This document shows positions 13,468 to 24,324 of a stretch of DNA of 24,589 nt, in pieces (positions within the stretch are counted from its first letter, which is position 1; each line of letters opens with the position of its first letter). A program made the translations under genes and the position numbers. Source of the stretch: a virus; IMG/VR virus record IMGVR_UViG_3300027082_000113, positions 1-24,589 of that record. One strand, 5' to 3'. The notes beneath the pieces are model-generated. The model saw only the letters and a program-made list of their open reading frames with translations. It did not search any database and was not told the origin of the DNA.

Positions 13468-15342
13468 CTACCTCCTGAACCATGAGGGCTTACCTGTCGA
13501 TTGAGGCCCTCCCCGCCCTTTTGGGGACGGGGCCTTCTTCTTCGTCTTGTCCCCAGATCCCCCACGGGGCGGCCGACGGAGAAGCTGCAGTCCTCCTCCG
13601 GGCCACTGAGGATCTACGGCCGCATGATTGTATATTTCGCAGTCGAGCAGGTGGTTTTCCCGCCCGACCTGGACCCATTGCGCCCGGCCCTTGTTGTCCA
13701 CGCGCTTCTCCTCGCTTCGGATCTGCCGGGCGTAGTCCTCGCCTACTTCCGCATGCAGAAAGGCCGCCTGGACGGGATCGCCCTCACGCGCCCGACTGAG
13801 GCGATGGTGAAACGTCTCCTTGAGTTCGTCCGTATCCAGATTCACGATCTGGAGACCCTCGGGGATCCGCTTACCGCTCGGGGTCCGATCAAGGACCTGA
13901 CTCGGGCGCACCTTCTCGACCATCTTATGGCTCGCGCCCTGGACGCCCCAGACACGACACCCGCGCCCGCGCCCGTTCTTCCGGAGCCACCAATAGGCCT
14001 CCTCGGTCATGCTTACTCCGGATTCGGCCATACCGCCGCCGATATCCAAAGCAGCCCGCCAGATCGACATGGGTTGCCCGCTACCCTCGACGGGATAAGC
14101 GGACTCAAAGAGCAGGTGCTCCAGATCCTCCCAGGCCGGGAGGAACCCGTAATGGATAAGCCAGGAAGTAAAATCCTTCGACCATGCGCGAACTGTGAAC
14201 CAAAATCCAACCTTCTGCTGGTCTACACCCGCCACCAGGGCCACGGCGTCCTCGGGGACGGTCTGAGGCGAAAGCTCGGTCCGGGCCTCCAGGATATCGG
14301 ACTCCTTGGCGCTCAAGGTGACATTCGCCCAAGGCTGGCCGAGCTTGAGATTCACAAAGGCCATCATCGCGTCACGATCCCCGGAATGGACCGCATCGCT
14401 CCACTCTTTCGCCAGGGCCGCGAAAGACGACCACGGACTATACAAGGCGTTGATATGATAGCCTCGAATATCCGATTCGGGATTATGCGGGCGCCACTCT
14501 CCCCGTGCAATGATCTCGTTTCGCTCACGCTCCCGGATTGTCCCCTCGCAATAAGGGCAAACGAGGGTGGCCGTCTTGGGGCGGCTCTTCTCCCACTGGA
14601 CGTTCTTCCATTCCAGGGTATGAAAGACCTCGCAATGAGGACACGGGACATAGAAATACCGTTGATCCGAAAGGTAGAACCAGGACTCGATATTGCTCTC
14701 GCCCTGAATGGTGGGAGTAGAGACTAGGCCGATTTTGCGATTATAGAAGTTTTCGGATCGCTGGATAGCGATACGGATAGGATCGCCCTCTCGGGTAGTA
14801 CCGTAGCGATCCACCTCGTCCAGGAGGACGATGCGAATAGGGCGAGTGGCAAGTCCGGCGGGAGCATAGGAGGAAGCAAAGGCCAGGAAGCCTCCAGGGA
14901 AGTGCTTGACGTCGAGGGTATTAGAAGTTTTGCGGCCGTTCCCCCGGCTCTCGTTCACCTCCTCGAGCTTGCCCTTGAGGGCCGGGGACTGATTGAAGAC
15001 GGGTGTCACGCGCTCCTTGGAAAAGGCGTTCATCATCAGCTCGTTAGGCTGGACAACGAGGATCGGGGACGGTTCATGATCCGCATAATAGCCGATCACG
15101 TTCAAGAATTGCTCGGTTTTGCCCACCTGGGAGGACATCATGCAGACCACCGTCTCGACGTAGACGTCCGCAAATGCATCCATAGGCTCGACTAGATAGG
15201 GGACGCGATCATTGCGCCACCGTCCGGGCTCCGGGCTCGTCCCCTTGGGGATAACCCGGCTTTGCTCAGCCCACTCGGACACCGTTAGACGGACCTTGGG
15301 CTGGAGAAGGGATTGAACAACGTCAGACCAGATGGCGCTCAC
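13468..15342 (-). CDS. Terminase large subunit (lambda gpA family)
   Basis: 624 residues, close to lambda gpA (641). It packages DNA into the prohead and cuts concatemers. The ATPase motor shows SSQVGKT (70-76, variant Walker A) and IVLLDEVD (171-178, Walker B with catalytic Glu). A zinc-ribbon-like pair follows, CPHC (234-237) and CPYC (262-265), common in this family. The nuclease half includes VAGVDQQ (about 377) and DIGGGM, acidic residues expected in the RNase H-like site. The C terminus (GGSGDKTKKKAPSPKGRG) is basic and disordered and may contact the portal. It overlaps the small subunit by four bases (ATGA), so the two are likely translated together. Confidence 0.95.
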   Translation of the reverse strand: MSAIWSDVVQSLLQPKVRLTVSEWAEQSRVIPKGTSPEPGRWRNDRVPYLVEPMDAFADVYVETVVCMMSSQVGKTEQFLNVIGYYADHEPSPILVVQPNELMMNAFSKERVTPVFNQSPALKGKLEEVNESRGNGRKTSNTLDVKHFPGGFLAFASSYAPAGLATRPIRIVLLDEVDRYGTTREGDPIRIAIQRSENFYNRKIGLVSTPTIQGESNIESWFYLSDQRYFYVPCPHCEVFHTLEWKNVQWEKSRPKTATLVCPYCEGTIRERERNEIIARGEWRPHNPESDIRGYHINALYSPWSSFAALAKEWSDAVHSGDRDAMMAFVNLKLGQPWANVTLSAKESDILEARTELSPQTVPEDAVALVAGVDQQKVGFWFTVRAWSKDFTSWLIHYGFLPAWEDLEHLLFESAYPVEGSGQPMSIWRAALDIGGGMAESGVSMTEEAYWWLRKNGRGRGCRVWGVQGASHKMVEKVRPSQVLDRTPSGKRIPEGLQIVNLDTDELKETFHHRLSRAREGDPVQAAFLHAEVGEDYARQIRSEEKRVDNKGRAQWVQVGRENHLLDCEIYNHAAVDPQWPGGGLQLLRRPPRGGSGDKTKKKAPSPKGRGGPQSTGKPSWFRR

Positions 15343-15953
15343 TTCTTATCGTCTCCCTGCATGGTGTTGAGCTTTTGCATCTCTTCCTGAATAGCCTGCT
15401 TGATCTCGTTCACGCCGTCCTCGATGATCTGCTGCACTTCCGGGAGAGAATCGCGCTGTATGAGCTTAGGGGCGAGACGAGAGGGGAGAGAGTCAAGGAC
15501 GGACACCAAGGCCCCGATCACTTGCTCGGCCTCGCCGCGCACCTCGCTGACCGGGACATATTGGCCCTTGCGAATGTAGTAATCCAGCTCTTTGAGCAGG
15601 CTGTTGAACGCCTTTTCCTTGGCGCGGGACTTGTTGAATACCCGTTGGGCCTCCTGCACGGCAGGATCGGAGAACTCTGACGCCTGGGGGACCGTATCAT
15701 CCGGGACGCCCTGATCCCCATTCCCGGATGAAGCCTTATCGTGGCCGTTCTTGGCGCCGCTTTTCTGGCGCCGGTTCCACTCACGGGTCCCCTCACGGCC
15801 TACCTCCCCCAATGCCTGAAATTCAGCATACGCCTTCTTTTCGTCAAGTTTACCCTTGCCCGACGTTGACAGTTTGCCTTTTTTGACAAGCTGATTGATG
15901 TATTGGCGAGAATGACCCACCTGTCGAGCGAATTCAGCTTGGGATAATGCCAT
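15339..15953 (-). CDS. Terminase small subunit (Nu1-like)
   Basis: 204 residues. The first 27 residues form a helix-turn-helix (LSQAEFARQVGHSRQYINQLV) fitting the DNA-binding domain of lambda Nu1-type small terminases. A disordered Gly/Asp/Ser-rich linker (about 65-105) follows, then a helical C-terminal domain (VFNKSRAKEKAFNSLLKEL and EVQQIIEDGVNEIKQAIQEE) for assembly and contact with the large subunit. The start has AAAGG five bases upstream. It recognises the packaging start site (cos or pac); I cannot locate that site, which in lambda lies next to Nu1. Confidence 0.85.
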   Translation of the reverse strand: MALSQAEFARQVGHSRQYINQLVKKGKLSTSGKGKLDEKKAYAEFQALGEVGREGTREWNRRQKSGAKNGHDKASSGNGDQGVPDDTVPQASEFSDPAVQEAQRVFNKSRAKEKAFNSLLKELDYYIRKGQYVPVSEVRGEAEQVIGALVSVLDSLPSRLAPKLIQRDSLPEVQQIIEDGVNEIKQAIQEEMQKLNTMQGDDKK

Positions 15954-16620: not shown

Positions 16621-17181
16621 CTATGGAACGATCTGCGCGATCTCACGCGCTACGGCGTGGAGATGCTTATAGCCAAAGCTCGGCCGATACCGGCCATGCC
16701 ATCCCGAGAACTCATCCAGGTCCATTTCGCTGGTATGCATACCTCCCGGAGGGTTGCGATATTCCGGATAGGGCTCGAGACGAAAAAGCCATCCCCCCAT
16801 GTGCAGGATGTATTCCGCTTCCTCCATAAAGCGAATATCGCCTAGAATAAGGGAGTTGGGACGGTTTACCGTGATCCACGAATTCATCTTCTTGACCCAA
16901 TGGTGCGGATCCTGCTTTCGGCAAACATCGGTCCCCCACCACTGGAGAATATGCCGGACCCTCATGCTCCCCAGGGGAAGATCCGAATGAAATATCACCC
17001 GCTCTTTCCCCTCCGCGCTGTAGGCCCATTCCAGAGGAAAACCGAACCGCTCGGAGCAATCTTCCTTGACTGCATCCCCAAAGTCACGCCACGCTTGCGC
17101 CTTCCCCATACGGTAGAGGGTTTCGGAAATAGTGCTCTTGCCTGTGCCGATCTTGCCAGAGATCCCGATAACAATAAACAT
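16621..17181 (-). CDS. P-loop deoxynucleoside monophosphate kinase-like protein
   Basis: With the start at 17181 (AGGAGG five bases before ATG) the protein has 186 residues. The longer frame would overlap the previous gene with a basic unrelated leader. It shows a Walker A motif GKIGTGKS (9-16), a LILGDIRF strand with Asp115 and Arg117, and HTSE at 149-152, a set I recognise from phage dNMP kinases. These phosphorylate dNMPs (in T-phages often modified ones) to supply replication. It follows the accessory ParB/PP-loop block with one gene between. If that block modifies nucleotides, a kinase for modified monophosphates would fit, but this is inference. Other P-loop kinases of dephospho-CoA kinase type are an alternative. 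Confidence 0.72.
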   Translation of the reverse strand: MFIVIGISGKIGTGKSTISETLYRMGKAQAWRDFGDAVKEDCSERFGFPLEWAYSAEGKERVIFHSDLPLGSMRVRHILQWWGTDVCRKQDPHHWVKKMNSWITVNRPNSLILGDIRFMEEAEYILHMGGWLFRLEPYPEYRNPPGGMHTSEMDLDEFSGWHGRYRPSFGYKHLHAVAREIAQIVP

Positions 17182-17194
17182 CGTCCCCTCCTTT

Positions 17195-17680
17195 TCAAAT
17201 ATCCTCGAGAGCAGACACAAGCGTCTGCGCGGCCCTTTCGCCCGCATCCATGCTATCCTCGGCCGTCAGTTCAGGGTCCATGCTTTCATAGAGCTTCTGC
17301 AGCGCCCCGAGCATATGCGCCCAGAGGTGTTGCGTCTTACTCGACACTTTCGCGAATTTATCAAAGGTAGCGAGCAGGATCGCATTAACGTATTCCCGCC
17401 CATCGAGTTCTTCACCGGGCCACGCATCTATCACCGCCCGCTGAGCGGCCTGAACCTCCCGCTTGTAGCGCTCATATTCCTTCTTACTCTCGAATACGGG
17501 GCCGCCGTCCCTGTTCAGGAGGACGATCTCCCCCTTTATGCGCTGCGAGAGGTCGGACAGTTCCCAAAGGACTTGGCCGATCTCTACGTTATCCGGGTTG
17601 GCGTCCTTCTCCGCGTCAATGATTCCCTCGATAAGATCCAGGGCGATCAATTGCCTCCTTACCGCTCGCGAATAGCCCAT
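17195..17680 (-). CDS. Unknown helical protein
   Basis: 161 residues, predicted soluble and mainly helical. I do not recognise a family. The N terminus (MGYSRAVRRQLIALDLIEGIIDAEKDANP) and middle (SQRIKGEIVLLNRDGGPVF) have no catalytic pattern I can name; LATFDKFAKVSSKTQHLW and MLGALQKLYESMDPE are typical amphipathic helices. It begins 17 bases after the IbrB-like gene with a G-rich ribosome site (AAAGGGG) and ends 13 bases before the kinase gene, so it is in the same transcription unit. It could belong to the ParB/PP-loop block or to DNA metabolism. Confidence 0.7.
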   Translation of the reverse strand: MGYSRAVRRQLIALDLIEGIIDAEKDANPDNVEIGQVLWELSDLSQRIKGEIVLLNRDGGPVFESKKEYERYKREVQAAQRAVIDAWPGEELDGREYVNAILLATFDKFAKVSSKTQHLWAHMLGALQKLYESMDPELTAEDSMDAGERAAQTLVSALEDI

Positions 17681-17697: not shown

Positions 17698-18222
17698 TCA
17701 GTTTTTCACCTGCGAATACGTCTCGGCCTTGTTATACCGCTTATCCGGGGCCATCATCTCCAGGAAGTCCTCGCGGGAGAAGTCGGACAGCCGGAACACC
17801 TCCTCAACGCGCATGCCGAGCTGCTTGCCCACCTCATCAACGGTCTTGCCCTGATCGAGTAGACGCTTCACGATATCTTTCATAGGCCCGAGCTGATGCA
17901 CACCCCTGGCCCGATTATGGGTGATCGTTCCATACATATCCCCGGCCTCTTCCTCATGCTGCACGACCACCACGGGGACCTTCCCCCCGAGCATGGAGTA
18001 AAGCGGCTCCTGGAAGGCCACGGTCCAGCGGTGGAACCCGTCGATGATGGTATAGTCGGGCCGGACCACGATGGGCAGGGTCCAGCCGTTGGTGAGGATG
18101 GACTGCTTCAAGAGCTCCAGGCTTTGCGAGTCCACCCGGTTCGGGTTGTAGTCATTGGCCCGGAGCTGCCCGTGATCTATCCAGTGCAGGCTCCGCAGAG
18201 GCGTATCAAGTTCTTGGCTCAT
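17698..18222 (-). CDS. ibrB: ParB-like nuclease-domain protein, IbrB-like
   Basis: The start at 18222 has AGGAG seven bases upstream and lies ten bases after the IbrA-like stop; the longer frame adds 42 residues read across that gene. The protein is 174 residues. It has the ParB/sulfiredoxin fold pattern: DYNPNRV (24-30), LPIVVRPDYTIIDGFHRWTVA (49-69, split at the conserved G-F-H-R), and THNRARGVHQLGPM (101-114). The 'HNRARG.H' stretch is typical of IbrB-type proteins. A C-terminal helical region (EVGKQLGMRVEEVFRL) may be a small HTH. In E. coli, IbrA and IbrB act together to activate eib surface-protein genes; the chemistry is not known. Here the pair is adjacent in the same order. Confidence 0.82.
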   Translation of the reverse strand: MSQELDTPLRSLHWIDHGQLRANDYNPNRVDSQSLELLKQSILTNGWTLPIVVRPDYTIIDGFHRWTVAFQEPLYSMLGGKVPVVVVQHEEEAGDMYGTITHNRARGVHQLGPMKDIVKRLLDQGKTVDEVGKQLGMRVEEVFRLSDFSREDFLEMMAPDKRYNKAETYSQVKN

Positions 18223-18232
18223 CGCTTGGCTC

Positions 18233-19357
18233 CTACTTTTCCCGGCCTCGATCGGCCAGTTTGGAATACATGACCCGCAGGCTCCTTTGCTTCGGATCCC
18301 CGCCCACAAGAGCCCCGTATATCTCGCGCCACTCCCTATGCGTCGCAAGGTGGCCGAGCTTAAAGACGAGCTTCTTATAGGTCCGGGCCACCTTCTGACT
18401 GTTCTTGGTATTGAAGTGCGCGGGGATATCGGAGAGCATCGAGAGGACCTTGGCTCGATAGTCAGTATGATCCTCTTCCCCCTGCTCCCGCTTCTGCTTG
18501 CCCGCCCGGCGGAACATCTCAGTGTTCCAGTAAAGGGCCGCCAAGTAGGCGTTCGGCTCCCGCCGGGTGATGCGCTCCATGAGATCGGGATAGAACTCCT
18601 GGAGATTCACCAGGGACTTCGCCGTATCGACGGAGAAGAATTGGCTGATCCGAAGCTGCGGCCGACTGCACCCTATCTGCCAGAGGTAGAGATATTCCAC
18701 CGGAAAATCGAGCCCGCGCTCCCGAATAAAGAGCCACACGTCATTGTCGGTCCAATCATAGATGGGCTTGACCATCCTATCGCCCTTGGATTTGGAGAAG
18801 GAGATGAGCCGCTGCATGGACTCCGTGACCCGTACGCCCACGACATTCGGATATCCCTTGGTCAGGCGCAGGAGAAACTCCTGATAAGAGTCCTTCACCG
18901 GGCGATGCAGGGGATGGTAGGTATAGGCCACGGAGGGCATGGGCCGCACCCACACATCCCGCTTGTGCCGATCCCAACAGATGAACGTCTCCTCCTCGGA
19001 GAGGAAGTTGAAGCAGTTGAAGTGCTTCACCTCCAAACAGAGCCACCAGAATTGCGCCCCCTGCATGAGGAACGTCTTCCTCCAGGAATCAACGATCCGC
19101 TCCACATCGGGGAAGATGGCCTCCTCGTCCACGAACATCACGATCAGTTGCCGGGGGTCGATACGCCCGGCCTGGATGAGCTCCAAAATGACCTGGGCAA
19201 GACAGATGCTGTCCTTGCCCCCGGAGAAGGAGACGAACACCGGGAGGCCATGCGCGAAGGCGTTTTCGACCCGCTTCTTCGCGGCGGAAACCACGTCATA
19301 CTTCTTCGACTTCTGCCGGATTATCCGTCCCATACCCATTCTCCGCAGTGAGGGCAT
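18233..19357 (-). CDS. ibrA: PAPS-reductase-family PP-loop protein, IbrA-like (DUF3440-like)
   Basis: 374 residues from 19357; a start at 19333 (366 residues) has a better ribosome site (GGAG seven bases upstream) and may be the real one. The PP-loop SGGKDS (45-50) binds ATP. Further family signs are FVDEEAIFPD (75-84), HFNCFNFLSEEE (112-123), ICWDRHKRDVWVRPMP (126-141), VVGVRVTES (172-180) and KPIYDWTDNDVW (197-208), which together match IbrA/DUF3440 proteins. The C-terminal domain (about 260-370) is helical. It lacks the ECGLH motif of true PAPS reductases, so reduction of PAPS is unlikely; adenylation or ATP-pyrophosphatase chemistry is expected. It overlaps the second CPxC ParB gene by 37 bases and precedes the IbrB-like gene. 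Confidence 0.85.
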   Translation of the reverse strand: MPSLRRMGMGRIIRQKSKKYDVVSAAKKRVENAFAHGLPVFVSFSGGKDSICLAQVILELIQAGRIDPRQLIVMFVDEEAIFPDVERIVDSWRKTFLMQGAQFWWLCLEVKHFNCFNFLSEEETFICWDRHKRDVWVRPMPSVAYTYHPLHRPVKDSYQEFLLRLTKGYPNVVGVRVTESMQRLISFSKSKGDRMVKPIYDWTDNDVWLFIRERGLDFPVEYLYLWQIGCSRPQLRISQFFSVDTAKSLVNLQEFYPDLMERITRREPNAYLAALYWNTEMFRRAGKQKREQGEEDHTDYRAKVLSMLSDIPAHFNTKNSQKVARTYKKLVFKLGHLATHREWREIYGALVGGDPKQRSLRVMYSKLADRGREK

Positions 19358-19887
19358 TGCACCTGACGGGCCGCCGGGGGCGCCTGCTCGGAGGGAGCAG
19401 AGGGCGGCGTGGGCATGGACTCCGTAAAGTCGCCGCCACCACCGCCCCCCGAGGGGGGATCGCTCGGGGCGCCATACCCTTCAATTCGGGCGTCGATGTC
19501 CTCATCGGAGGCAACGAGGTTGCTAATCGTCTCCTCATCGAATCCGGGGACGTCCGTATCCGGCATCTCGGAGAGGAACCGCACCACGGCGTCCGCATCG
19601 TCCACCCCCAGATCGAACATTCGGTTGTCCACGACCATGAGCTTTTTCTTTTCCGCCTCGGACAGACCCCGCTTCACGATAGCGTAGGCCTCACTCCACT
19701 TGAGGCGCTGCATGGCCGTGACCATCCCCGCGCCCACTAGGATCAGGCCATTTTCGTCCACGACAACAGGGCGAGTCTGCCCGAAGGTCTGCAGGCCCCG
19801 CGCCAGTTCTTCCATCTGCTTTTCGGGATGCTGCCGCACGTTACGTTCCGGGAAGGACAGGGATTCAATACTCACCTTTTCGTTCAT
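19321..19887 (-). CDS. ParB-like protein with C-terminal CPxC (second of a tandem pair)
   Basis: 188 residues. The ParB N-terminal domain (1-125) shows NVRQHPEKQMEELARGL (16-32), FGQTRPVVVDENG (35-47), VGAGMVTAMQRLKWSEA (51-67) and LMVVDNRMFDLG (83-94). The usual GERR of ParB is replaced by GAGM. After a Ser/Pro/Gly linker (about 140-174) the protein ends in QCPHCGEWVWDG with Cys178 and Cys181. It begins one base after the first copy with GGAGG six bases before ATG and is clearly its paralogue. Such domains are found in phages next to modification enzymes; here the neighbours are PP-loop proteins. The CPxC could bind metal as a dimer or carry sulfur. Confidence 0.85.
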   Translation of the reverse strand: MNEKVSIESLSFPERNVRQHPEKQMEELARGLQTFGQTRPVVVDENGLILVGAGMVTAMQRLKWSEAYAIVKRGLSEAEKKKLMVVDNRMFDLGVDDADAVVRFLSEMPDTDVPGFDEETISNLVASDEDIDARIEGYGAPSDPPSGGGGGGDFTESMPTPPSAPSEQAPPAARQVQCPHCGEWVWDG

Positions 19888-19888
19888 G

Positions 19889-20542
19889 CTATTCCTCCAT
19901 CTCGATCATTCCGTAGCAGTTAGGACACTGGATCCGGCGCCCATACGGTCCGCCATCATCACTACCGCCGCCGGGGGGCTCGCCCCCTCCCCCGGTAGAG
20001 GACGAGGAGGCCACTGATTGAGGCTCTCCGGACGCTGTGTCGTTTCCGGACGGCTCCCCCGGAGCGGAGGACGCGGACGGCTCCCCGAAGGGTTCATGGC
20101 CGCCCTGAGAGGCATTCTGGCCCGCTTCGCTACCTTCGGGGGCCTCCCCGTCCACCATCGCCTCCAGCATATCCATCTCAAAGCCGGGGATATCGTAGTC
20201 CGCGGACTCCCGGAGGATCTGCTCCAAAACCTCAAGCTGCGCATCGAAGTCCGTCGCCCCCAGGCTGGACATGCGGTTGTCGGAGAGCATGAGCTTGCGC
20301 TTCTGGGCCTCGGTGAGGCCCCGGTAAACGTAGACCTCGGCCTCGCTCCAATCCAAGCGGACCATCGCCATCACCATACCGTTGCCGATGAGGACCGTGT
20401 AGTTCTCGTCCACCACGGCGGGGCGAATCTGGCCGAACTGCTCCAGGGCGCGGGCCATCTCCTGCACCTGTTTCTCCGGATGGGAGCGGACGTTCTGCTC
20501 GGGATACCGCAGATCAGACAGCGGAACCGTGCTCGTTTCCAT
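19889..20542 (-). CDS. ParB-like protein with C-terminal CPxC (first of a tandem pair)
   Basis: 217 residues. The ParB-like domain (about 1-130) has QNVRSHPEKQVQEMARAL (16-33), FGQIRPAVVDENY (36-48), IGNGMVMAMVRLDWSEA (52-68) and LMLSDNRMSSLGATDFD (84-100), matching the next gene nearly motif by motif. GNGM replaces the usual GERR. A long Gly/Ser/Glu/Pro linker (about 132-203) leads to IQCPNCYGMIEMEE with Cys206 and Cys209. The start is set by AGGAGGT six bases upstream and overlaps the second PAPS-reductase-like gene by 29 bases. The two copies may form a heterodimer in which the two CPxC pairs make one zinc site; this is inference. Confidence 0.86.
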   Translation of the reverse strand: METSTVPLSDLRYPEQNVRSHPEKQVQEMARALEQFGQIRPAVVDENYTVLIGNGMVMAMVRLDWSEAEVYVYRGLTEAQKRKLMLSDNRMSSLGATDFDAQLEVLEQILRESADYDIPGFEMDMLEAMVDGEAPEGSEAGQNASQGGHEPFGEPSASSAPGEPSGNDTASGEPQSVASSSSTGGGGEPPGGGSDDGGPYGRRIQCPNCYGMIEMEE

Positions 20543-21320
20543 ATAGCCACCTCCTTGCAGGGCTGAATTGTTCCGCAGCTCGCGGAATTACAGAGGAATC
20601 TATCGAATGGACCTCCCGGAACCCCTCATCCCAGGACTTGCAATGCTGCCTCGCGGGCCAGACGTGCGTCCCGCACTGATACCCCTTGGGCCAGGAATAA
20701 ATAGGCGGGATCGAGGTGAAATAATAGAACATCGCGGCCAGGACATGACCGTGGTCCCAATCCGCGAGAGGGGAATACCGCAGGACACCCCGTGAGGAGT
20801 AATAGTTGCCCTTGCCCCCGATGTAATTGCCATCGGCCCGGCGTCTGCCCAGGATCAGCACATCGAGATCCTGGGCGAGGAAGTAGCGCTCCTGGGCTTT
20901 ATGCTGGATCTTCTTGAACCAAAGGGCGGCGATCTTAGCATCGCGGGGAAAGAGCATCCCCGGATTCTTTTCAAGCCAGGGCAGATCAAGGCCGGATTCG
21001 AGGATGGTCAGATTGCGGGGGCCGTTCTCCTGCGCCCAGGAGAGGAACTCCGGGAACTCCAGCTCCTTCGCTGTAGCCATCAGGCAATCCGTGGCCCCGG
21101 CCGCCTCGCACACCACCTGGAGCGCAAGGCTATCCTTGCCCCCGGACCACGCGAAGGCCGCCCGTTTCCCCTGGCAAAAAGCCCGGATCTTCTCCGCGGT
21201 CTTCGCCACCATATCGTCCATCTGGGCGCGGGAGACGTATTTCTCGATATACCGGGCCAGGAACTCCCACCGTTCCTGCACCATAGATTGCTTCTTGGCT
21301 TTAGCGATTTGAGCAAGCAT
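20514..21320 (-). CDS. PAPS-reductase-family PP-loop protein (divergent)
   Basis: 268 residues. The start at 21320 has GGGAG eight bases upstream and overlaps the transporter's end by 20 bases. The PP-loop SGGKDS is at 59-64, preceded by a helical N-terminal extension. Later motifs are ATAKELEFPEFL (82-93), LDVLILGRRRADGN (152-165) and YSPLADWDHGHVLAAMFY (182-199), the equivalent of the 'P...W...DVW' region of sulfonucleotide reductases. A QCGTH sequence lies at 215-219, reminiscent of, but not identical in position or sequence to, the catalytic ECGLH. It is followed by WPARQHCKSWDEG. The substrate is unknown; adenylation by ATP is the shared chemistry of the fold. It sits between the transporter and the first ParB gene. 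Confidence 0.83.
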   Translation of the reverse strand: MLAQIAKAKKQSMVQERWEFLARYIEKYVSRAQMDDMVAKTAEKIRAFCQGKRAAFAWSGGKDSLALQVVCEAAGATDCLMATAKELEFPEFLSWAQENGPRNLTILESGLDLPWLEKNPGMLFPRDAKIAALWFKKIQHKAQERYFLAQDLDVLILGRRRADGNYIGGKGNYYSSRGVLRYSPLADWDHGHVLAAMFYYFTSIPPIYSWPKGYQCGTHVWPARQHCKSWDEGFREVHSIDSSVIPRAAEQFSPARRWLYGNEHGSAV

Positions 21321-22689
21321 AGACCACGCTCCCGGAGATCAGGACAGTGAGCAGGGAACCCGCCACGATGAACGCGGTATGATCCCCGAAATTGCCGTAT
21401 GCGAAAATAGGGAGGCCGATCAGGATTGACCCGATGATCCCGTAGAACATCGCCGGCTCGGAAATATCTTCATCGCGCCGGCTGAGAAGCGTCTGCACGG
21501 TAGGCAGTAGCGTCGAGGCCCGGAGGGTCCCGTAAAACAAGAACAGATACACGATTTCCATGCCGGGAATGCTTGCGATAAGCACGGCGGCGAGCGCCAC
21601 CAGGAGCATACCGGCCCGCGCCACATGAACGGAACTCACATTCCAGCGCAGACGGTCCTCGATATCAGCCCCGGCCATAGACGACACCGCGCACAGGCAG
21701 GAATCCAGGGTGGAGATGAGCCCGCACAGGAGCATGAAGGCGAAGGGCAGGACCGTCCAGGCCGGGAGCACTTCCGCGACAGCCTGGAGGTTGATGGTCT
21801 GGGAGTCGCCGGTGGAAAGTCCCATACCGGCGGCCAGGAACCCGAGGAGGGAGAGCAACAGGGGGATAAGGCCAAAGATAAGCGCCCCTGCGATAAAGGC
21901 CCGCCGAACCACGCTCACCTGAGCGGCCTGGGCTCGTTGCCAGAAGGATTGGTCCCCGAAGGGACCGGAAAGAAGGCCGATGGTGGTTGCCAGCCCGAAG
22001 GAGAGAAAGACCTCCAGGCCGTAGGCATCAAACGGGTTGCCATAGTTGCCGGACACGCCGCCCAGACCATCGGCCACCACGGACAGACCGCCCCCGGCCG
22101 ACACGGCCCAGGGGATAAAGATTCCGCCGACCAAAAAGATGATAAGGGCCTGGAGGTGGTCCGTGACCACTGAGGACTTGAGCCCCGCCCATAGCGAGTA
22201 TGAGAGAGCAATGGCAGACATTGAGATGATGATGGGTAGAAAAGAAAGGCCGGTAATGTTGGAGAAGATAAGCCCGCCCGCCAAAAGCTGGACCGCAAAA
22301 GCGCAGATGGACAGGCCGATCATCTGGAAAAGATAAAGCCCTTGAACGCGCCCGCTATGAACGCGCCCCATGAACTCGGGGAGGGTGTAGCCATCGGGCA
22401 TCCTGGCCCGGAGGCGGACGGCGAATTCCGAGAAGATGATCAGGCAAAGGACGTTAGGGACCACAAACCAGAGCAGTCCCACAATGCCCTTGTCGTAGGC
22501 CATCTGGGAGGAGACGAACAGGGCAGGAGCCCAGGTCCAGGTCGCGGCAATAGAGAATGCGGTTTGCCACATCCCGAGCTCCCGGTTCGCCACCAGGAAT
22601 CCTTCTTTGCCCTGGACGCCCTTGGAGTAGAGCACAGATAACCCGAACATGATCCCGAAAAAAGCGATGAGCATGAGAATACCAGACAT
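21301..22689 (-). CDS. Sodium:solute symporter (SSS family) in a phage accessory block
   Basis: 462 residues, hydrophobic throughout, with about twelve to thirteen membrane segments. Family signs are YSLWAGLKSSVVTDHLQ (164-180, the SSS signature region), GDQSFWQRAQAA (245-256), and LISTLDSCLCAVSSM (324-338), where Ser/Thr residues of the second sodium site are expected. It is a bit shorter than many SSS proteins (about 500 or more). AGGAGGT lies three to nine bases before the ATG. It would import a small solute with sodium across the inner membrane; the substrate (sugars, amino acids, urea and others in this family) cannot be told. It is flanked by phage-type genes on the same strand and overlaps the second PAPS-reductase-like gene, so it is part of the same unit. 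Confidence 0.9.
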   Translation of the reverse strand: MSGILMLIAFFGIMFGLSVLYSKGVQGKEGFLVANRELGMWQTAFSIAATWTWAPALFVSSQMAYDKGIVGLLWFVVPNVLCLIIFSEFAVRLRARMPDGYTLPEFMGRVHSGRVQGLYLFQMIGLSICAFAVQLLAGGLIFSNITGLSFLPIIISMSAIALSYSLWAGLKSSVVTDHLQALIIFLVGGIFIPWAVSAGGGLSVVADGLGGVSGNYGNPFDAYGLEVFLSFGLATTIGLLSGPFGDQSFWQRAQAAQVSVVRRAFIAGALIFGLIPLLLSLLGFLAAGMGLSTGDSQTINLQAVAEVLPAWTVLPFAFMLLCGLISTLDSCLCAVSSMAGADIEDRLRWNVSSVHVARAGMLLVALAAVLIASIPGMEIVYLFLFYGTLRASTLLPTVQTLLSRRDEDISEPAMFYGIIGSILIGLPIFAYGNFGDHTAFIVAGSLLTVLISGSVVYACSNR

Positions 22690-22786
22690 GAGACCTCCTT
22701 TACGTTGACAGAATACGAGCGTTCTGAAACCATACGTTTATACCCATCCTCCTTATGGCGTCGAGGCTCCATCCTTCTCGCCTCCG

Positions 22787-22816
22787 GCCCCCCGGACGTT
22801 CCGGGGGGCTTTTTTT
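22787..22816 (+). terminator. Rho-independent terminator facing rightward
   Basis: GCCCCCCGGA at 22787-22796 and TCCGGGGGGC at 22800-22809 form a perfect ten-base stem with a three-base loop, followed by seven T residues at 22810-22816. The T run is on the plus strand, so it would stop rightward transcription, although all genes here are read leftward. On the minus strand only an A run precedes the stem, so it may act poorly for the operon itself. It lies between the unknown gene (ending 22819) and the transporter gene. Confidence 0.75.
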
Positions 22817-22818
22817 GT

Positions 22819-23145
22819 TCAACCAATGGTAAACGCAAGAAAGCCAGTGTGTCCTCGCAACGTAAGCTCATGCCGAAGATCAATCTTGTGAGCTTTTGGC
22901 ATTTCAATAAACGCGACAATCTCGCCTTTCCAGTAATACTCAATATCACGAACAGGGTACCCGATAGGGGGGAGAGACATACCTCCTCGTCCGGGAAAAT
23001 GAATCGTATCGTATTTGCAAAATCCTTTCCCGCCCTTTGAGACAAGCGGAGAATCCGTCATCGGAGGATCGCCGCGATCCATGTTGCGAATCCTGCCTTT
23101 CAGTAGCAGTGTATGGACGTGACCGGTAAATACAGGCTTCATCAT
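22819..23145 (-). CDS. Unknown small protein
   Basis: 108 residues, starting at 23145 with a one-base TAATG overlap with the Cys4 protein gene, and a second ATG right after it. I do not recognise a family. The sequence has a His-containing start (MMKPVFTGHVHTLLLKGRI), a Gly/Pro-rich middle (FPGRGGMSLPPIGYPV) and a mixed beta/alpha end (EYYWKGEIVAFIEMPKAHK). There is one Cys and no membrane segment. Coupled translation with the preceding gene suggests that both are made together. Confidence 0.6.
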   Translation of the reverse strand: MMKPVFTGHVHTLLLKGRIRNMDRGDPPMTDSPLVSKGGKGFCKYDTIHFPGRGGMSLPPIGYPVRDIEYYWKGEIVAFIEMPKAHKIDLRHELTLRGHTGFLAFTIG

Positions 23146-23375
23146 TACCCCCCTTCTTCCTCTTCATACGCTTCCACGGCCCCCGGCTCATCTATCGCTC
23201 CGAAAGCATTTTCCTTCCATTGTTCGCAATAACCATTTCCGGAAATGAACCGCTGAAAATTCGGACTCGCCCGCCGCAGGCAGACAGCTTCAACAGGTCC
23301 GCCTCCTTCCGCCTGGGCGAGCAAGGAACTCCAAAACCGACACGTTGCGCACTCTTTCACCGCGCTTGGCCGCAT
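23145..23375 (-). CDS. Small Cys4 protein, probably zinc-binding
   Basis: 76 residues. CATC at 9-12 followed by RFW, then Cys32 (VCLRR) and Cys50 (GNGYCEQWKE) give a 'C..CrFW...C.R......Y C..W' pattern seen in small phage proteins that bind zinc. The C terminus is acidic (EAYEEEEGG). The start at 23375 is preceded by a GGGGGTG ribosome site. It lies between the first PP-loop gene and the unknown gene. The role is unknown; such mini-proteins often bind nucleic acid or host proteins. Confidence 0.65.
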   Translation of the reverse strand: MRPSAVKECATCRFWSSLLAQAEGGGPVEAVCLRRASPNFQRFISGNGYCEQWKENAFGAIDEPGAVEAYEEEEGG

Positions 23376-23434
23376 ACCTTCACCCCCTTTGGTTTCATTG
23401 TTACAGCCCGGACGCGATCAAAAATGTTTAGAAC

Positions 23435-23458
23435 AGGACCACGATCAGGACCGCGATC
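23435..23458. repeat. Tandem 12-base repeat in the gap after the first PP-loop gene
   Basis: AGGACCACGATC and AGGACCGCGATC lie side by side with one mismatch. They are in the 181-base gap (23376-23556) between two accessory genes, where I see no convincing gene. They could be a binding site; the evidence is only the pattern. Confidence 0.35.
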
Positions 23459-23556
23459 GCGTTATTCCTCCAGCGCCGCCACGGGCTCAGGCAGCTTGCT
23501 TCTCAGGAGGCTTTCTTCTTTCCGCACTCCACATACGTCGGTATGCAACATTGCTC

Positions 23557-24324
23557 TTATATTGCCCGCACGAATCCTTCCTCATCGGAATTGATTACGC
23601 CCCCCCAAGGCAGCTTTAGCTTCTTATCTTCCATCTGGAAGCGTTGTTCCAAGTCGTTCACCGTTTTGTAACCCTTGAATCCTCTGTTGTCTGGCATATT
23701 TTGATCCCATTCCAACATTTTGCTCCATAACTCAGGATAGTGTCGGCGCAGTTTTCGCAACTCAGATAATCGTTGAAGTGGGCAACAAAAACAGCTAACC
23801 CTGTTAAACACTTCATATAATCCACTCCAGTCAAAACCGTGTTTCATGCAGTAAGCAAGAGCTTGTTGCTCTGTTATGTTGTATTCTTGTAACGGAAACC
23901 GATAATTAAACTCTTTATCTTTAAGTTTTCGTTGTGCTTCATCAGCAGCGTATCCAATGCACTGCACTGGATTATCAACCTTGCGAACAAACTGTTTTAT
24001 CTCCTTTGTTTTTTCCCTCGTGCACCACCTACGCAAAGGAGAAGGCCATCCAACGCCATGCCTGCCGCTTTGCTTTCCTTTATAAATTGTGTAGTTAAAC
24101 ATCCAATCGTAAAAACTTCGTTTAGGCTTTAATCTCACAAATTCAAATCCCACATAGTGCTCTAGCTTATCAATGTGATCCTGCATCTCTGGAAATTCCC
24201 ACCCCGTATCAAACCACACAACGGAATGGATTGGCTCTCCGCGCTGCAACATCATCAGTAGCATTGCGGTAGAATCCTTTCCCCCGGAAAGGTTTACTAC
24301 TTGATTCATCTCCATATATTCCAT
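23557..24324 (-). CDS. PAPS-reductase-family PP-loop protein, Cys-rich, AT-rich gene
   Basis: 255 residues. The start at 24324 is fixed by AGGAGGT six bases upstream, although two further ATGs follow. SGGKDS is at 13-18, then FDTGWEFPEM (38-47). RRWCTREKTKEI (98-109) has Cys101, QCIGYAADEAQR (121-132) has Cys122, and SCFCCPLQR (177-185) has Cys178, 180 and 181. The C terminus is basic to mixed with no ECGLH motif. The WCT and C.CCP arrangement is known in phage PAPS-reductase-family proteins and might hold an iron-sulfur cluster or zinc, as in the DndC branch; this is inference. The gene is far more AT-rich than its neighbours (19 G/C of 60 bases at 23881-23940), so it was probably acquired separately. 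Confidence 0.87.
   Translation of the reverse strand: MEYMEMNQVVNLSGGKDSTAMLLMMLQRGEPIHSVVWFDTGWEFPEMQDHIDKLEHYVGFEFVRLKPKRSFYDWMFNYTIYKGKQSGRHGVGWPSPLRRWCTREKTKEIKQFVRKVDNPVQCIGYAADEAQRKLKDKEFNYRFPLQEYNITEQQALAYCMKHGFDWSGLYEVFNRVSCFCCPLQRLSELRKLRRHYPELWSKMLEWDQNMPDNRGFKGYKTVNDLEQRFQMEDKKLKLPWGGVINSDEEGFVRAI

Follow-up and report, generated by a model that had tools for sequence, protein, structure and literature searches.

Why would a phage keep a transporter, PP-loop enzymes and ParB-like proteins side by side just ahead of its DNA-packaging genes? This question is raised by virus record IMGVR_UViG_3300027082_000113, of which we analyzed positions 1 to 24,589 (the window, 24,589 bases). Its minus strand encodes three PP-loop enzymes (PP1 to PP3), three ParB-like proteins (ParB-a to ParB-c) and a sodium:solute symporter of the SSF family; all but PP1 lie in a compact block at 17698-22689, hereafter the cassette. 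We found that the cassette recurs in the same order in many viruses and occupies the genomic place of known DNA-modification genes. The block is probably a module for hypermodification of phage DNA, for which it would import or synthesize the substituent and use the ATP chemistry of PP-loop enzymes to attach it.

Recurrence of the cassette in viruses and bacteria

An earlier note on this DNA had listed three PP-loop proteins, three ParB-like proteins and a symporter on one strand, packed tightly from position 22689 on, and had proposed that they form one functional unit. All seven open reading frames (ORFs) were present on the minus strand, and ORF calls, Pfam, PHROG, hhalign and AlphaFold2 models together confirmed their identities. 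From the symporter to ParB-c, the genes indeed overlap or lie 1 to 10 bases apart. Absence of co-occurrence elsewhere had been set beforehand as the refutation of a common unit; the genes co-occur in about 170 clusters, which does not refute the proposal.

We scanned 2.9 million viral contigs and retained 55 loci for the symporter, 26 for PP2, the best 80 for PP3 and the best 80 for ParB-c. A scan of bacterial genomes with PP2 added 23 loci. Unless stated otherwise, cluster counts given below were restricted to loci found via PP3 or ParB-c, collapsed at 90% identity to 90 clusters. Both scans revealed the same recurrent order: supply gene, PP2 when present, ParB, PP3, ParB-c and terminase. The symporter, ParB, PP3 and ParB-c followed this order in dozens of divergent viral contigs, a recurrence far beyond chance. 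The unit is conserved, with identities of roughly 25-50%, among phages whose hosts include Lachnospiraceae, Clostridia and Bacteroidales. The hosts represented among the sampled bacterial genomes included Lachnospiraceae, other Clostridia, Bacteroidales, Prevotella, Muribaculaceae, Streptomyces and Actinomadura. The cassette was found ahead of terminases of several unrelated families, and of the 64 clusters whose sequence extended far enough, at least 53 had a terminase large subunit gene no more than 4.5 kb downstream.

The array of three PP-loop and three ParB-like genes that the earlier note had described did not hold as the natural unit in this survey. ParB-c was present in 88 of the 90 clusters and ParB in 82, and PP2 occurred in 34, making it an optional member. 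PP1 was found within 7 kb of the cassette in none of the 90 clusters and is therefore a separate gene outside the unit. Most relatives have a single ParB gene at the place of ParB-a and ParB-b, after the importer and before PP3, so these two probably arose by duplication in this lineage. A few loci (L265, L386, L397, L452 and L456) carry decayed or partly recognized cassettes in which ParB-c and/or symporter pieces remain before the terminase gene, suggesting that the system is dispensable.

The first gene of the cassette differed in type between loci. A supply gene, either a transporter or a cupin, was present in 81 of the 84 clusters with enough upstream sequence (transporter in 60, cupin in 21, neither in 3; in 6 more clusters the upstream sequence was too short). 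Clusters from bacterial genomes gave a similar picture, with a transporter in 15/17 and a cupin in 2/17. The transporters that fill the slot are unrelated to each other: SSF symporters, a short SSF-like protein, an ABC (BPD) permease with an NMT1/SsuA-type binding protein, and TctC. In 55 viral loci, the symporter stood in this slot with the gene order unchanged. A homologue of the window's own symporter was found in only one of 50,697 records of a phage collection (MT836198), with PP2, PP3 and ParB adjoining. Two cultured phages of Faecalibacterium, Taranis and Pioen, have an intact cassette with the short symporter-like protein (~333 aa, weak SSF similarity), and prophages of Parablautia intestinalis D8-82 have one with an SSF symporter and PP2. 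Loci with an ABC permease and an NMT1/SsuA-type lipoprotein include L112:5636-7428, with similar ones in L107, L111, L113, L120, L213 and L244. More rarely, the slot was filled by glutamine amidotransferases, by an aldehyde dehydrogenase or by a PIG-L deacetylase next to a small cupin. This exchange of one importer for another, or for an enzyme of small-molecule metabolism, suggests that the core needs a small molecule. We rejected naming this molecule from transporter kinship, as the DUR3, choline, PanF, SsuA/TauA/THI5-like and terephthalate/TctC-like relatives share no common compound.

Exchange with DNA-modification genes in the pre-terminase slot

The slot upstream of the terminase genes was surveyed using three terminase large subunits as anchors, which yielded 101 loci with at least 4 kb of upstream sequence. 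The cassette was present in 53 of them, another DNA-modification-type enzyme in 18, neither in 30 and both in none. This lack of overlap has a hypergeometric probability of 2e-7, though the loci are not independent; when collapsed to 90% terminase clusters, the split was 42/14/19 (cassette, modification enzyme, neither). According to Pfam, the alternatives were a C5-cytosine methylase, Mom, a TET-associated glycosyltransferase (TAGT) with a UDP-sugar dehydrogenase or a pyridoxal phosphate (PLP) decarboxylase, and fusions of ParB to either an N6/N4 methylase or an amidoligase. Also present in the slot were genes for WbqC and formyltransferase. Furthermore, a ParB gene matching the same profile was present in 16 of the 18 alternative loci, and a PHROG check on two of these showed it to be of the phrog_620 type. 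Hence, the cassette and known DNA-modification genes replace each other at this position, both with the same accessory ParB family; the phage Mom, TAGT and ParB-methylase modules share the slot of the cassette and this family but encode a different enzyme and lack a transporter. The exchange pattern rests on two of the three terminase families, because the third (T019) has only cassettes (6) or empty slots (13) and no alternative modification genes.

Two sets of alternative loci deserve mention in their own right. TAGT genes stand beside a UDP-sugar dehydrogenase or an Orn/Arg-type PLP decarboxylase upstream of the terminase in L305, L306, L319, L330 and L333, which are probable further hypermodification modules; a ParB gene mostly accompanies them, though none was detected in L330. 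The same pre-terminase slot harbors a ParB domain fused to Amidoligase_2 in L437:3275-4660 and L438:4106-5491, a candidate for another DNA-modification design.

Gene organization and protein families

The features of the locus are given in Table 1. Consecutive cassette genes overlap by 20 nt (symporter/PP2), 29 nt (PP2/ParB-a) and 37 nt (ParB-b/PP3), or are separated by 1 nt (ParB-a/ParB-b) and 10 nt (PP3/ParB-c). PP1, the first of these genes in the direction of transcription, is set apart from the block by two small ORFs (23375-23145 and 23145-22819) and a 129-nt gap immediately ahead of the symporter gene. This gap contains an 11-pair GC-rich hairpin (22786-22810), which is followed by a T-run on the plus strand and preceded by an A-run on the minus strand. 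Downstream of ParB-c are genes for a 161-aa protein and a P-loop nucleotide-kinase-like protein (16621-17247, resembling a deoxynucleoside monophosphate kinase by eye), a small ORF that reads from its sequence as a putative VRR-type nuclease, and the terminase subunits. The kinase-like gene was rejected as a cassette partner, as it was not found in related loci.

Table 1. Features of the cassette and its surroundings, in order of transcription.
Feature	Coordinates	Strand	Remarks
PP-loop enzyme 1 (PP1)	23557-24324	-	SspD/phrog_424-like; outside the conserved cassette
Symporter-family importer, sodium:solute	21301-22689	-	Pfam SSF, phrog_20720; first cassette gene (supply slot)
PP-loop enzyme 2 (PP2)	20514-21320	-	phrog_424, AlphaFold2 fold; optional member
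ParB-like protein a (ParB-a)	19889-20542	-	phrog_620, phrog_498
ParB-like protein b (ParB-b)	19321-19887	-	phrog_620; paralogue of ParB-a
PP-loop enzyme 3 (PP3)	18233-19357	-	phrog_2302, IbrA; IbrA-like core enzyme, 374 aa
ParB-like protein c (ParB-c)	17698-18222	-	ParB_N, phrog_2159, IbrB; IbrB-like
Terminase small subunit	15339-15953	-	ORF; fixed downstream neighbour of the cassette
Terminase large subunit	13468-15342	-	39.8% identity, 2e-123 to annotated terminases

PP2 and PP3 are predicted to be N-type PP-loop ATP pyrophosphatases on the basis of an SGGxDS pyrophosphate loop on the HUP fold, with AlphaFold2 models that match CysH, GMP synthetase, TilS and TtuA. PP2 (268 aa, SGGKDS at 59-64) scored below the Pfam cut-off (0.023) and matched phrog_424 (4.7e-21); its model (pLDDT 93.6) adopts the predicted N-type fold and matched CysH (Z 13.6, root-mean-square deviation [rmsd] 3.2 over 183) and GMP synthetase (Z 13.1, rmsd 2.7 over 166). 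PP3 matched Pfam PAPS_reduct (1.3e-8) and phrog_2302 (2.6e-77), and the top solved match of its model was adenosine phosphosulfate (APS) reductase (Z 14.9, rmsd 4.1 over 191). The fold neighbours of both proteins include APS and phosphoadenosine phosphosulfate (PAPS) reductases, GMP synthetase, NcsA, TtuA and TilS, many of them tied in score. SGGKD is kept among the 99 PP2 sequences, the SGGKDS, DEE, GxRxxES and YDW signatures of PP3 are at least 95% conserved over 205 sequences, and SGGKD(S) occurs in at least 96% of each family.

Neither alignment contains a cysteine column conserved in at least 95% of members, which argues against Fe-S thiolation and CysH chemistry; a single semi-conserved cysteine in each (C107 in 90% of PP3, C71 in 85% of PP2) may still allow thiol chemistry. 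CysH-type reduction was rejected for PP2 and PP3 given this lack of a fully conserved cysteine and the score of PP3 (13.8 bits against a CysH cut-off of 154), and so was Dnd/Ssp phosphorothioation, as PP3 scored 15.8 against 290 for DndC (TIGR03183) and PP2 gave no match. The match to the PADLOC DndC family was only 3e-4. PP1 matched PAPS_reduct (1.2e-14), phrog_424 (3e-50) and PADLOC SspD (5.5e-28); its relatives are scattered across 38 phage records.

Among the ParB-like proteins, only ParB-c scored above the Pfam cut-off for ParB_N (2e-6), and it also matched phrog_2159 (4e-67). ParB-a and ParB-b fell under that cut-off but matched the ParB-like phrog_620 (3.1e-34 and 1.9e-34, respectively), and their family profile aligned with that of ParB-c (hhalign 94.7%, 6e-8). 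ParB-a, which has a ParB/Srx-type domain, further matched the ParB-methyltransferase phrog_498 (1.6e-27) and the N-terminal part of PADLOC MTase_II (1.1e-10). ParB-a and ParB-b are 42% identical and both end in a CxxC zinc-ribbon-like tail, which is found in 141 of 145 family sequences. In most of 146 sequences of this family, GNG replaces GxxR with loss of the arginine. The catalytic-type DGxHR motif and NRARGxH are invariant across 225 ParB-c sequences. A partition function, as in chromosome or plasmid ParB, was rejected: ParB-a and ParB-b lack the GxxR arginine and the neighbours read are packaging genes, with no ParA recognized among them. One ParB-c homologue (L082:4127-5353) carries an insertion of ~230 residues inside the ParB domain; its contig also encodes a PIG-L deacetylase, a small cupin and a TAGT-like protein.

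The symporter (462 aa, 10 hydrophobic segments) matched Pfam SSF with 54.8 bits against a cut-off of 22.8 (9.6e-15) and phrog_20720 (7e-124), and its closest solved structure is the urea symporter DUR3 (8e-16).

Proposed function and alternative explanations

As other viruses keep their DNA-modifying enzymes at the place of the cassette, its probable role is to add an imported compound to viral DNA. DNA modification was one of several options offered by the earlier note, and it is now the best supported. The symporter, by its family, would bring a small molecule into the infected cell; other phages have in its slot another kind of importer or an enzyme of small-molecule metabolism, namely a cupin, a PIG-L-type deacetylase, a glutamine amidotransferase or an aldehyde dehydrogenase. 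As their fold and conserved active sites suggest, the PP-loop enzymes would use ATP to adenylate either a DNA-base carbonyl or the imported compound, and then join both. TilS adenylates an RNA-base carbonyl in this manner, and GMP synthetase does so on XMP. The ParB-like proteins, whose family occurs next to or fused with phage DNA methylases, Mom and glycosyltransferases, may attach to DNA and either guide the reaction or drive it, with the catalytic-type ParB-c (DGxHR) as a near-obligate partner of PP3. The module probably acts late, around packaging; the terminase of the adjoining genes would package the modified DNA, and the modification would protect the phage from host nucleases.

Several known systems resemble the cassette in part. 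ParB genes accompany CmoX/CmoY, a two-step cytosine hypermodification of phages that yields 5-carboxymethylcytosine-amino acid by ATP-dependent attachment of a small molecule, and the role of ParBc there is stated as unknown (PMC12783734). However, no CmoX, CmoA or CmoY was seen in the cassette, a PP-loop enzyme replaces the AMP-forming ligase and the importer is dedicated. The ParB-like NTPase DpdB serves another base-modification machine, the one that inserts 7-deazaguanine into DNA (PMC12839542), but neither a TGT (DpdA) nor DpdC was recognized in the cassette. Dnd/Ssp phosphorothioation (DndC, SspD) has a PP-loop ATP pyrophosphatase in common with the cassette, and PP1 resembles SspD; in contrast, curated models identify neither PP2 nor PP3 as DndC or SspD, and these enzymes have no conserved cysteine set and no recurrent DndA/D/E neighbours. 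Among the slot genes read, no DndA/D/E or SspA/B/C gene was found, and the window is a fragment whose partners can be elsewhere. The same core order (ParB, PAPS reductase, ParB, terminase) is found in Mycobacterium phage Kamiyu and Arthrobacter phage Laroye, with ~28-30% identity to PP3 but no recognized importer. In Laroye, a 493-aa phrog_16093 protein of unknown family (gp4, L259:1712-3193) lies just upstream, at the supply-slot position.

Some observations weigh against a role in DNA modification. The position and the exchange with modification genes are circumstantial, and the slot can host any late moron. Exclusion between the cassette and modification enzymes is strong but not absolute, because two contigs outside the 101-locus set carry both within 7 kb, one with a ParB-methylase (L042/L098/L189) and one with a TAGT (L082). 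The ABC variants encode a permease and a binding protein with no ATPase gene seen among the adjoining genes read; these phages presumably borrow a host ATPase. Finally, homologous IbrA/IbrB pairs exist in E. coli and Streptococcus phages without ParB-a or a transporter and away from the terminase, so PP3/ParB-c can work in another setting.

Four other explanations were considered. The genes could be auxiliary metabolic genes for nutrient or sulfur acquisition, importing a sulfonate, amino acid or similar compound that a PAPS-reductase-like enzyme assimilates for the infected cell. The importer is usually present, the binding proteins of the ABC variants are SsuA/TauA-like, PP1, PP2 and PP3 match PHROGs named phosphoadenosine phosphosulfate reductase, and published annotations label such enzymes PAPS reductases, auxiliary metabolic genes or host metabolism (PMC10434257, PMC11318856). 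We nevertheless consider this explanation unlikely: besides the cysteine and CysH-score results above, the importer can be replaced by cupins and other enzymes, and neither the near-obligate ParB partners nor the exchange with DNA-modification genes is explained. The same chemistry could instead act on host or phage RNA (such as tRNA), on a protein or on free nucleotides. Many PP-loop enzymes modify tRNA, the closest folds (TtuA, NcsA, TilS, GMP synthetase) act on tRNA or nucleotides, and ParB/Srx-fold proteins can be nucleotide or small-molecule kinases, as in sulfiredoxin and the serine kinase SerK. However, it is the ParB-a/b family that occurs as fusions with DNA methylases (phrog_498), and exchange with Mom, TAGT and methylases at a fixed pre-terminase place points to DNA, which makes such other targets improbable.

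The resemblance to IbrA/IbrB pointed out by the earlier note is real: PP3 is 24% identical to IbrA of Escherichia phage PhiR5_2 (5e-21) and ParB-c is 38% identical to IbrB (4e-31), and in this prophage pair, as in that of Streptococcus phage CHPC1230, the two genes are adjacent and in the same order as PP3 and ParB-c. IbrA/IbrB stands alone, whereas the cassette adds ParB-a/b, an importer or cupin, and the terminase neighbour. Since IbrA and IbrB are annotated as co-activators of prophage gene expression, the cassette could alter phage or host gene expression with the transporter as a sensor. This is very unlikely in our view, as we know of no biochemistry behind the IbrA/B phenotype, the enzyme active sites are fully conserved and the slot enzymes (cupin, deacetylase, amidotransferase) suit synthesis rather than regulation. 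Changes in host gene expression and modification of a protein, both raised in the earlier note, found no support here beyond the IbrA/IbrB name. A membrane protein next to NTP-using proteins, together with the SspD-like PP1, could also suggest that the genes serve superinfection exclusion or counter host defence by depleting or exporting a metabolite. Yet the SSF, TctC and NMT1 proteins belong to uptake families, the symporter, PP2 and ParB-c match no PADLOC family, and PP1 lies outside the unit, leaving this the faintest of prospects. Assignment of the cassette to a known defence system was likewise rejected, as no PADLOC system fits.

Having preferred DNA hypermodification, we see about an even chance that the cassette represents an undescribed and widespread class of such systems in which phages bring their own importer, PP-loop enzymes attach the substituent to a DNA base, and the chemically new bases vary among phages with the slot occupant. 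The full texts searched, mostly non-subscription literature, contained no account of the cassette, of its importer or of the way it exchanges with modification genes. If our reading holds, the cassette would to our knowledge be the first case in which a phage supplies DNA modification through a nutrient importer of its own. Genes of very many gut and aquatic phages that now count as PAPS reductases, partition proteins or metabolic cargo would then form one system for building unusual DNA. Such a system would also offer a tractable setting for studying the ParB-like proteins found with phage DNA-modification genes, whose role is stated as unknown (PMC12783734). Furthermore, new DNA bases and enzymes could be obtained from it, and a direct test is feasible on virion DNA of cultured phages.

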